Source: Diplonema papillatum (lineage: Eukaryota > Euglenozoa > Diplonemea > Diplonemida > Diplonemidae). From it: DNA of 64,000 bases. The stretch spans positions 1 to 64,000 of the forward strand of contig JAPJBO010000146.1 in the NCBI GenBank assembly GCA_030068145.1. The letters run 5' to 3'. The notes beneath the pieces are model-generated. The model was not told the origin of the DNA and searched no databases. It worked only from the letters and a program-made list of their open reading frames with translations. Positions 43,575-64,000 of the stretch are shown here, one piece after another. Each line of letters begins with the position of its first letter. Position 1 is the first letter of the stretch. The position numbers and the translations under genes are program-made.

Positions 43575-44036
43575 TAGTAGTAGTAGTAGTAGTAGTAGTA
43601 GTAGTAGTAGTAGTAGTAGTAGTAGTAGTAGTAGTAGTAGTAGTAGTAGTAGTAGTAGTAGTAGTAGTAGTAGTAGTAGTAGTAGTAGTAGTAGTAGTAG
43701 TAGTAGTAGTAGTAGTAGTAGTAGTAGTAGTAGTAGTAGTAGTAGTAGTAGTAGTAGTAGTAGTAGTAGTAGTAGTAGTAGTAGTAGTAGTAGTAGTAGT
43801 AGTAGTAGTAGTAGTAGTAGTAGTAGTAGTAGTAGTAGTAGTAGTAGTAGTAGTAGTAGTAGTAGTAGTAGTAGTAGTAGTAGTAGTAGTAGTAGTAGTA
43901 GTAGTAGTAGTAGTAGTAGTAGTAGTAGTAGTAGTAGTAGTAGTAGTAGTAGTAGTAGTAGTAGTAGTAGTAGTAGTAGTAGTAGTAGTAGTAGTAGTAG
44001 TAGTAGTAGTAGTAGTAGTAGTAGTAGTAGTAGTAG
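43575..44036. repeat. (TAG)n microsatellite, about 154 units, left of E1
   Basis: Pure TAG on the plus strand. Its right edge joins E1 as TAG/GAATT. It produces meaningless poly-Tyr, poly-Leu and poly-Thr frames on the minus strand. Confidence 0.97.
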
Positions 44037-44264
44037 GAATTGGTACCGGCTCTTCTTGTCTTCTGCTTGATCGGGCAAAGGATGCACAACACTTCGTATC
44101 ATCGAAAGCTCCTCACTCGGCAAAGTGTTGAGGATTGCTGATGCAGAGCATGCAAAACATGAAAGGGAACTAAAGGAACCGATGTAACCTAACAACTGAC
44201 AAACTTGCGAACGGGATAGATGGAATATGGTTTGGGCGTATCAACGCCTACCATGACGATCACC

Positions 44265-44282
44265 GGGGCAAGGGAGGGCGGG
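44265..44282 (+). other. E1 G-quadruplex motif at the A/B junction
   Basis: GGGGCAAGGGAGGGCGGG: four G runs of at least three with loops of 3, 1 and 1. It is present only at the internal junction, not next to the ORFs. Confidence 0.8.
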
Positions 44283-44372
44283 AAAACTTTTTCTTTGGAA
44301 CTAGCTGCAACGTACCTGTCTATTTCAGGTTGAGTCCGAATAGGAATCAAGCTAACTGGACAATCCGATTTA

Positions 44373-44402
44373 CCAATTCCCTCAGTAAACTAAAAGAATT
44401 GG
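44373..44402. other. E1 candidate recombinase core site (B/A junction)
   Basis: CCAATTC and GAATTGG form inverted arms around a 16-base spacer at the junction of B with the second A. The outer element ends carry one half each. Confidence 0.6.
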
Positions 44403-44618
44403 TACCGGCTCTTCTTGTCTTCTGCTTGATCGGGCAAAGGATGCACAACACTTCGTATCATCGAAAGCTCCTCACTCGGCAAAGTGTTGAGGATTGCTGA
44501 TGCAGAGCATGCAAAACATGAAAGGGAACTAAAGGAACCGATGTAACCTAACAACTGACAAACTTGCGAACGGGATAGATGGAATATGGTTTGGGCGTAT
44601 CAACGCCTACCATGACGA

Positions 44619-62376: not shown

Positions 62377-62670
62377 GAATGGTCGCGGTATCTCCTTGCC
62401 TGCTGCTCGATACGTCGGGGATTCTGCTGGGTCTCTTCAAGATAACAACTCAAAACCATTTCAACTAACTCCAGGAAGGTCATGGCAACTCCACGCCTGC
62501 TACGTGTATCTTCAAGCTAAGATAAATCCATTTCAACTAATCCACTGATGCGCTATCTTCGAGGCCTGTCAAGAGGAAGGAAACATGCACTGAACCTAGC
62601 AACAGACTGACTTGCGAACGGGATGAAAGGAGTGGTCCAGACGTACCAACGCCGACCAAGACGATCACCC

Positions 62671-62689
62671 GGGGGCAAGGGTGGGTGGG
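62671..62689 (+). other. E5 G-quadruplex motif
   Basis: GGGGGCAAGGGTGGGTGGG at the A/B junction. Confidence 0.8.
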
Positions 62690-62776
62690 AATTTGTTTAA
62701 CGTTTTAACTAGCTAAGGTTGACCTCCTGTTGGAGTGGTTCACATTGGTTCCGAGCACTGACGGCAATTCAATGCG

Positions 62777-62805
62777 CCAATTCCCTCAGTAAACTGCAGG
62801 AATGG
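62777..62805. other. E5 candidate recombinase core site
   Basis: CCAATTC and GAATGG flank a 16-base spacer (62784-62799) that shares CCTCAGTAAACT with E1. Confidence 0.55.
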
Positions 62806-63087
62806 TCGCGGTATCTCCTTGCCTGCTGCTCGATACGTCGGGGATTCTGCTGGGTCTCTTCAAGATAACAACTCAAAACCATTTCAACTAACTCCAGGAA
62901 GGTCATGGCAACTCCACGCCTGCTACGTGTATCTTCAAGCTAAGATAAATCCATTTCAACTAATCCACTGATGCGCTATCTTCGAGGCCTGTCAAGAGGA
63001 AGGAAACATGCACTGAACCTAGCAACAGACTGACTTGCGAACGGGATGAAAGGAGTGGTCCAGACGTACCAACGCCGACCAAGACGA

Positions 63088-64000
63088 TCACCTTCCTTCC
63101 ACCCCGCCGCCAGTAAAGAATGCCACCACCGCCTGTGTGACGGAAGCAATAGACTTCGGAGTCAGCGACGTCAGGGGCACCCGCGATGGGAGATCTGCAG
63201 GGTTCCCTTCGCTCCGCACCCAGCGGACAGAGAGTGCGCAACCAAGGGTTCGCACCCTGGCAAGACCAGAAACCACCGCGTTGTTCAGGTCTGCGTCTCG
63301 CATGCTGAACCCTTTCCGCGCTACTCCCTGCACGGTGGTATTGTCCACCACAACATCGATCCGTCCACCGGCAAAGGCGTCCGGGATCGACATTGCCGAA
63401 CGTTCGAAGGCCATGGCCTCTAGAACATTAATGTGCAGCCTCGATTCCTCGGCTGACCAGGGAGCCCCCAAGATGGTTATTTCCGCCGTACGAGAGTCCA
63501 CGAGAACACCACCCCATCCCTTCTTGCTCGCATCAACGAACACTGTCAACGACGGTACAGGGAGCTTCGTCGGTATTGCCCGTGGCCTCATGACCGCGTC
63601 TATCCAACCTTGCAAAGATGAGCGTATGCATGGAGACAGGGAAACTTGTTCCGTCGGCATCCTCGTTCCTCGGTTCAACGAGTTCGTTACTCTGCGCATG
63701 AATTTCAGCGCAAACCAGAACGAGCCGGGGAAAATGCCCGCAATTGCAGATGCGTGGAGCAGCCTGCCCCCCAAGGCTTCGATATCACCGGCAGAAAGCG
63801 ACGAAGCCTGGAGCTCGTACCGCGTCGTCATCAGCTTTCTGCAAAGCTTGCTGCTCAGCGAGACCTGCGAGACACTGTGTCGCCAGTCGACCCCGATGAA
63901 TTCATAACGGGGTGCAGCCGTCCGGGAATCAGCGTCTTTCCATGTCAGCGAGCAGTCCACCGCCGTCTGGTCCAACCGCCGCGTCGCTGCAAGAACGCAC
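63088..64000 (-). CDS. E5 reverse transcriptase-RNase H, N-terminal part outside the window
   Basis: Open from the right edge to TGA 63090-63088 within repeat A. Visible: the RT C-terminal part (YEFIGVDWRHSVSQVSLS, GGRLLHASAIAGIFPG) and a complete RNase H (VFVDASKKGWGG, HINVLEAMAFE, VVVDNTTVQG, GNPADLPSR). The RT active-site box lies just beyond the edge. Confidence 0.88.
   Translation of the reverse strand, partial: CVLAATRRLDQTAVDCSLTWKDADSRTAAPRYEFIGVDWRHSVSQVSLSSKLCRKLMTTRYELQASSLSAGDIEALGGRLLHASAIAGIFPGSFWFALKFMRRVTNSLNRGTRMPTEQVSLSPCIRSSLQGWIDAVMRPRAIPTKLPVPSLTVFVDASKKGWGGVLVDSRTAEITILGAPWSAEESRLHINVLEAMAFERSAMSIPDAFAGGRIDVVVDNTTVQGVARKGFSMRDADLNNAVVSGLARVRTLGCALSVRWVRSEGNPADLPSRVPLTSLTPKSIASVTQAVVAFFTGGGVEGR

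Follow-up and report, generated by a model that had tools for sequence, protein, structure and literature searches.

Most target-specific retroelements recognise a single sequence. Simple repeats are targeted by the non-LTR (long terminal repeat) retrotransposons Dong, Waldo and Kibi, which use an endonuclease and target-primed reverse transcription and have neither a tyrosine recombinase (YR) nor split repeats. TATE, from Leishmania braziliensis and other trypanosomatids, is described with a gag-like open reading frame (ORF), a YR, a reverse transcriptase/RNase H (RT/RNase H) and split direct repeats ordered A1...B1-A2-B2 (PMC12278014, PMC6681497), and as forming tandem clusters at a fixed position, GGG^TTA, of the telomeric hexamer (PMC6681497). 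The account of VIPER and SIRE of Trypanosoma cruzi gives the same gene set and repeat order, with SIRE corresponding to A2-B2 of VIPER; tandem-repeat targeting is not among the features it describes for VIPER (PMC6681497). Here these systems are compared with five elements, E1 to E5, which lie in a row in (TAG)n arrays in a 64,000-base stretch of Diplonema papillatum DNA (contig C146, bases 1-64000; hereafter the window). C and L numbers denote contigs and fetched loci, respectively. The genome searched comprises 271 Mb in 2910 contigs. The published assembly, of about 280 Mb, is reported with TATE-like ORFs, and the sections of that report used here make no mention of target sites (PMC10161547). 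Proteins related to the E1 recombinase bear DIPPA_ names of D. papillatum.

We consider it likely that E1-E5 represent a clade of VIPER/TATE-like YR retrotransposons of D. papillatum that integrates preferentially into tandem repeats. Homing of a YR retrotransposon to telomere repeats is known. For interstitial repeats of many unrelated sequences no such homing is described in the open-licence literature searched, where no YR retrotransposon with a micro- or minisatellite target was found besides TATE at telomere repeats. An earlier note on this DNA knew of no YR retrotransposon family that targets TAG microsatellites. The described habit of TATE is closely similar (PMC6681497, PMC2696322). 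The train is arranged as follows.

43575..44036, unstranded: (TAG)154 array, the target repeat left of E1
44037..48647, minus strand: element E1, complete, with ATTC at its 3' end (44037) and TTTTAG at its 5' end (48647)
48648..48890, unstranded: (TAG)81 array
48891..53498, minus strand: element E2, complete; 5' end CTTTAG
53499..53771, unstranded: (TAG)91 array
53772..57759, minus strand: element E3, complete, no YR gene; 5' end CTGTGG
57760..58172, unstranded: (TAG)37 and (TAG)100, with a 2-nt slip between them at 57871-57872
58173..62067, minus strand: element E4, complete; 5' end TTACAG
62068..62376, unstranded: (TAG)103 array
62377..64000, minus strand: element E5, window part; runs on to contig position 65066 and is 5'-truncated in its YR gene

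Between the (TAG)n arrays are E1 to E4, each complete, and a portion of E5, all on the minus strand. As the earlier note had observed, the elements differ in sequence: over alignable DNA the identity among E1, E2, E4 and E5 is about 64-76%, and E3 aligns with the other four in short pieces only, its ends matching those of E2 at 80% over 117 nt. The start TAG|GAAT on the plus strand was found in 5/5 elements, the right ends inside the window adjoin TAG in 4/4, and the separating arrays were confirmed at 154, 81, 91, 37+100 and 103 units. The description of five YR retrotransposons in a row needs amending, as E3 has no YR gene and E5 is both cut by the window end and truncated. The truncated 5' end of E5 nonetheless adjoins a TAG array. 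Past the window the train continues with (TAG)81 and then one further GAAT end, the sixth 3' end (AACCATTC), which belongs to an E3-like copy (L009, C146:65067-65310 and beyond) with no RT match inside the fetched stretch.

Element copies across the genome were sampled by RT protein match, not by TAG flank. The E1 query returned 88 scored matches, E4 16 of its own family and E3 88; short 3' flanks were fetched for copies and 5' flanks for some. A flank was scored as a repeat if it began with CTA units (TAG on the opposite strand) or if a Tandem Repeats Finder array started no more than 15 nt away and reached 60 nt. Denominators are copies with a located 3' end and a usable flank. By this measure 111/118 copies adjoin a repeat, or 106/113 without five ends placed by eye. 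The E1 set (E1, E1b, E2, E5 and E5b) has 56 copies in CTA and 10 in other repeats, accounting for all 66 with zero exceptions. The count becomes 71/71 with five copies from two divergent families, whose RT is 68-69% to E1 and whose ends were placed by eye; one family (C762, C20 and C329) has a common end in three different repeats, while both copies of the other family (C243, C785) sit in the same repeat. Tandem repeats adjoin 8/12 E4 copies, 4/12 being at a non-TAG repeat and a further 4/12 at no tandem repeat. A random draw of E3 copies lay at repeats in 14/14 cases (8/14 at a non-TAG tandem repeat), and a convenience set did so in 18/21.

The 10, 4 and 8 copies at other tandem repeats, and the four E4 copies at none, have unrelated sequence as their flank, an outcome that the earlier note had named as refuting its reading. 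Since the same families occupy unrelated repeats, the TAG arrays are also target rather than cargo, which removes the possibility that they form part of the element. What stands of its proposed homing and stacking is that several YR-type families home to a repeated target and stack there; TAG is not the target as such.

The first flank tally left out 63 of the 192 listed RT places, and the random draw of 20 was later taken from those 63. The convenience set was partly hand-chosen, 12 of its copies coming from loci picked for TAG|GAAT. Copies dropped were 17/88 in the E1 set, namely C659 (flank of 8 nt) and 16 without a located end (4 within CTA arrays, 6 containing other repeats); 4/16 in the E4 set; 4/25 in the E3 convenience set, one of them in a CTA array; and 6/20 in the E3 random set, one in a CTA array and two containing other repeats. 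An E3 region on C1285 was left out because the region does not exist, and a 65-nt flank (C144:94603) was accepted under a laxer rule.

Under the same test, repeats adjoined 37/600 random points and 38/600 A^C points in window 1-42,400, and 1/20 random genome points. None of six APE-RT copies (long interspersed nuclear element, LINE-type) with a placeable poly-A end lay at a repeat, two of the six sharing a flank. With controls this low, the repeat association belongs to this clade and not to every element here. The LINE copies at L190 and L194, on different contigs, have identical 3' flanks and would be duplicates or lie on allelic contigs. No clade element was noticed in the window minisatellites at 22599-23431 (62-bp x 13.4), 26889-27762 (43-bp x 20.5) and 21901-22340 (41-bp x 10.7).

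Besides CTA, a manual count gave 14 repeat units of 10-71 bp. The 11-bp repeat CCCCYATATGA holds 12 copies, from E1b, E5, E5b and E3. Other target units include a 71-bp TGTAACC-type, CCGACTTTTCTGGACTACAGA, CGTCGGACTA(A/C), CCAGTAACAG, CCTTTGATTGTTGTATAAGCA and CGTACATACGCACTA, together with units of 21, 31, 32, 41, 50 and 56 bp. Of 33 junctions with non-CTA repeats, 32 have C as the first target base, and the break falls at A^C in 23 (the preceding A being inferred from the period), compared with an expectation of about 0.077 per site. The figure by distinct unit, 11/15 with A^C, errs on the generous side, a single A^C insertion having sufficed to score the whole unit as A^C, and the conclusions rest on the per-site counts. 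Both ends were located in 9/20 loci. Six of these have one and the same repeat on either side, and in 5/6 the target joins with nothing lost or gained, i.e. with no target-site duplication; C11, C1032 and C51 show no single clean repeat on both sides. A core shared by circle junction and target was considered and rejected, as at most the first base is common and E1 and E4 share none.

Orientation was assessed genome-wide. The pattern (TAG)5GAAT occurs 179 times (92 forward, 87 reverse) and read backwards 0 times. In the opposite orientation, ATTC followed by 0-2 nt and (TAG)5 gave nine matches, zero of them with the in-phase (0-nt) gap. At fetched loci, with overlaps counted twice, CTA comes directly after 93 known 3' ends and TAG after 0. 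Among the 100 matches listed for (TAG)5GAAT, contigs with several matches hold one-strand clusters, for example C13 (4 minus), C67 (6 minus), C177 (5 plus) and C146 (6 plus). The suggestion that an asymmetric target would fix orientation is borne out in (TAG)n, where in-phase junctions number 179 versus 0. Both (CTA)n and CCCCYATATGA carry A^C on one strand only, which would explain a fixed orientation there.

The repeats within the elements are located as follows.

48522..48647, minus strand: E1 split repeat A1, 96% to A2
44396..44623, minus strand: E1 split repeat B1, 100% to B2
44270..44395, minus strand: E1 split repeat A2; the B1|A2 border is the two ends joined
44037..44264, minus strand: E1 split repeat B2
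48891..49469, minus strand: E2 region, with B1 49250-49469, A2 49129-49247, B2 48891-49110 and A1 53378-53496; 100% each
53772..54575, minus strand: E3 region, with B1 54269-54575, A2 54096-54266, B2 53772-54078 and A1 57587-57757; 100% each
58173..58685, minus strand: E4 region, with B1 58484-58685, A2 58394-58479, B2 58173-58374 and A1 61978-62063; 100% each
62377-62669 and 62800-63092, minus strand: E5 split repeats B2 and B1, respectively

Split direct repeats A1...B1-A2-B2 are present in 4/4 complete window elements, and E5 has B1, A2 and B2. Identity is 100% between B1 and B2 in each of the five, and 96-100% between A1 and A2 in the four complete elements. The elements end in ...ATTC| (3') and begin with |TTTTAG, |CTTTAG, |CTGTGG or |TTACAG (5'); in E1-E4 the internal B1|A2 border has the sequence that results when the 3' and 5' ends are joined. 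Junctions in the array read ATTC|CTACTA... and ...CTACTA|5' end. On either side of the B|A junction stand inverted arms, CCAATTC...GGAATTGG in E1 and similar in the others, which are separated by about 16 nt and are likely to be YR arms. Ngaro, PAT and DIRS1 have YR and RT/RNase H in common with these elements. Ngaro and PAT are described with split direct repeats in the same order (PMC6681497), whereas the inverted terminal repeats of DIRS1 are not the layout here. Judged by anatomy, the elements fit the Ngaro/PAT/VIPER model, in which split-repeat reverse transcription would yield a B|A circle that is integrated by the YR.

The fetched loci hold ten distinct short A-B units, 285-466 bp in length, each set between CTA arrays. 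They resemble SIRE and could derive from A1 x A2 recombination. At L024 (491-1610), L041, L074 and L123, A-B units stand head to tail (ATTC|CTTTAG...) with no intervening repeat, as recombination of circles or of internal junctions might leave them.

The coding regions are the following.

47471..48571, minus strand: E1 gag-like ORF, 366 aa stop to stop, without a Pfam match
46292..47470, minus strand: E1 tyrosine recombinase ORF, 392 aa, with a Cre-like fold in the model
44619..47333, minus strand: E1 904-aa open frame for RT/RNase H, conserved over about 44619-46070
51133..52368, minus strand: E2 tyrosine recombinase ORF
49463..52480, minus strand: E2 RT/RNase H open frame
54547..57564, minus strand: E3 open frame, a single one of 1005 aa that starts gag-like and also holds RT/RNase H (PF17917, 2.3e-07)
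60343..61461, minus strand: E4 tyrosine recombinase ORF
58682..61624, minus strand: E4 RT/RNase H open frame

The gene order in E1, E2 and E4 is gag-like, YR, RT/RNase H. The YR gene is upstream of RT/RNase H, unlike in Ngaro, where it follows. VIPER/TATE-type elements have YR and RT/RNase H in overlapping ORFs. The YR (46292-47470) and RT (44619-47333) open frames of E1 overlap, but the conserved RT part starts only near 46070. The YR was modelled because a Pfam scan did not recognise it, and the modelled structure has the Cre/Xer/Int fold. The tyrosine recombinase catalytic motif is R...H-x-x-R...H...Y. In an alignment of 27 YR sequences R236, H325, R329 and H356 are invariant and Y372 is nearly so; the box reads HSIKR, with K where R is usual. 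Cre, Tn1549 and integron integrases, which are not retroelements, have sequence identities of 11-15%. Tn1549-type integrases, which tolerate a lack of required homology, also appear in the fold list of the model; the homology need is at most one base here and more for Cre. A YR gene was looked for in E3 and none was found. The E3 family has retained gag and RT/RNase H at high copy number with YR gone. RT motif C, usually DD, reads IDN in the alignment consensus of 44619-46070 and its relatives.

The proposed mechanism begins with RNA copied into circular DNA, whose B|A junction would carry the recombination site. The YR would join this junction to an A^C step of the target, giving target-A|element|C-target and no duplication. 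As (CTA)n has A^C on a single strand, all copies would point one way, and the array remaining beside an insertion would offer fresh target, so that copies stack. E3, with no YR of its own, may depend on the YR of neighbouring elements for integration in trans. Candidates for what attracts the elements to repeats are chromatin, the structure of the DNA, or a modified base, for example base J. The last is a candidate because base J is reported to be concentrated in trypanosomatid telomeric repeats, the location of TATE (PMC10057400), and its pathway to be encoded by D. papillatum (PMC10161547). More tentatively, and with less than even confidence, we suggest that these YRs find tandem repetition itself, or a mark such as base J, and need just A^C, the telomere habit of TATE being one case and E3 being mobilised in trans.

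Several observations weigh against preferential integration at A^C steps of repeats by a VIPER/TATE-like clade. A^C is absent at 10/33 sites, and the 11-bp repeat supplies 12/23 of the A^C sites, leaving 11/21 for the remainder. C419 is off by one base, with C where the array has G. Seven of the 118 copies fail the repeat criterion: C1457, C1488, C430 and C1032 (E4) and C11, C49 and C51 (E3), although C430 and C11 have short degenerate repeats close by. The sampled copies are not all independent. Both orientations occur in the 71-bp repeat (C37 versus C419) and in the 31-bp repeat (L166 versus L150), and fixed orientation is not a general rule. The kinship with kinetoplastid VIPER/TATE rests on anatomy, because no kinetoplastid VIPER/TATE protein was among the matches listed from three protein searches, one with an RT alignment. 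One D. papillatum homologue (P0068) bears the name TcC31.12 in its source database.

Random insertion at A^C, with survival only in gene-poor tandem repeats, would also place copies beside repeats. Tandem repeats are mostly non-coding, long repetitive regions are reported between gene clusters (PMC10161547), and four E4 copies lie outside repeats. Nevertheless, repeats make up about 9% of window 1-42,800 and 4.5% at 20 random 400-bp points, so most non-coding DNA is not repeat, and the LINE-type copies of the same genome, two with a shared flank, were never beside one; we regard this explanation as unlikely. A single family recognising (TAG)n microsatellites only is suggested by the located ends of E2 (31/31) and E1 (5/5) in (CTA)n, and the CTA bias of E2 differs from that of E4, E5+E5b and E3 (Fisher p 3.4e-6, 1.1e-4 and 2.1e-4, respectively). 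E2 may have narrowed to TAG arrays. E1b, E5, E5b, E3, E3b and E4 copies lie precisely within other repeats, which rejects a TAG-only target for the whole clade, and such homing, possible for E2 alone, is quite improbable as the general account.

Preferential integration must also be set against origins of the pattern that do not involve target choice. Recombination between microsatellites could have moved copies from one TAG array to another; the arrays are long and perfect, E2 is restricted to them, and the ten short units fit A1 x A2 recombination. Against such passive spread, these families also occupy unrelated repeats, where their ends equal the internal B1|A2 junction, and the identity of B1 and B2 in the five window elements is as fresh reverse transcription predicts, making it very unlikely. 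In the least credible account, flank expansion creates the repeats once an element has inserted, or the element brings them along. In its favour, (TAG)n arrays that adjoin elements are of unusual length, and borders with (GAT)8 number 28 versus 278 with (TAG)8, a tenfold deficit. Yet a single family is found among many different repeats, which shows the repeat to be no part of the element, and minisatellites on both sides of elements hold old unit variants; this origin is extremely improbable.

The GGG^TTA site of TATE reads TAA^CCC on the opposite strand, the same A^C step as here; TATE is in telomeric repeats and the D. papillatum elements in many interstitial ones. Reports on TATE conflict, describing flanks with a TT duplication (PMC2696322) or no target duplication (PMC12278014); none is present here where both ends were read. 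ATTC beside CCCTAA repeats was found 0 times in an assembly from which (CCCTAA)4 itself is absent. If preferential integration into repeats is correct, target choice splits into which repeat and which base, the second following an A^C rule common to TATE and the D. papillatum elements, and the clade would be a test system for recognition of repetitive DNA by a recombinase. It would account for one-orientation clusters of different elements arising without co-ordination, and tell assemblers and annotators why such elements occur in arrays.

One RT copy (P0072) is publicly named 'putative target of rapamycin (TOR) kinase 1' and is apparently misannotated. Elsewhere in the window, LINE-type elements with endonuclease and RT domains lie at 1053-5507, 31788-34904 and 12498-13658, the RT match of the last being weak and below the Pfam cut-off.
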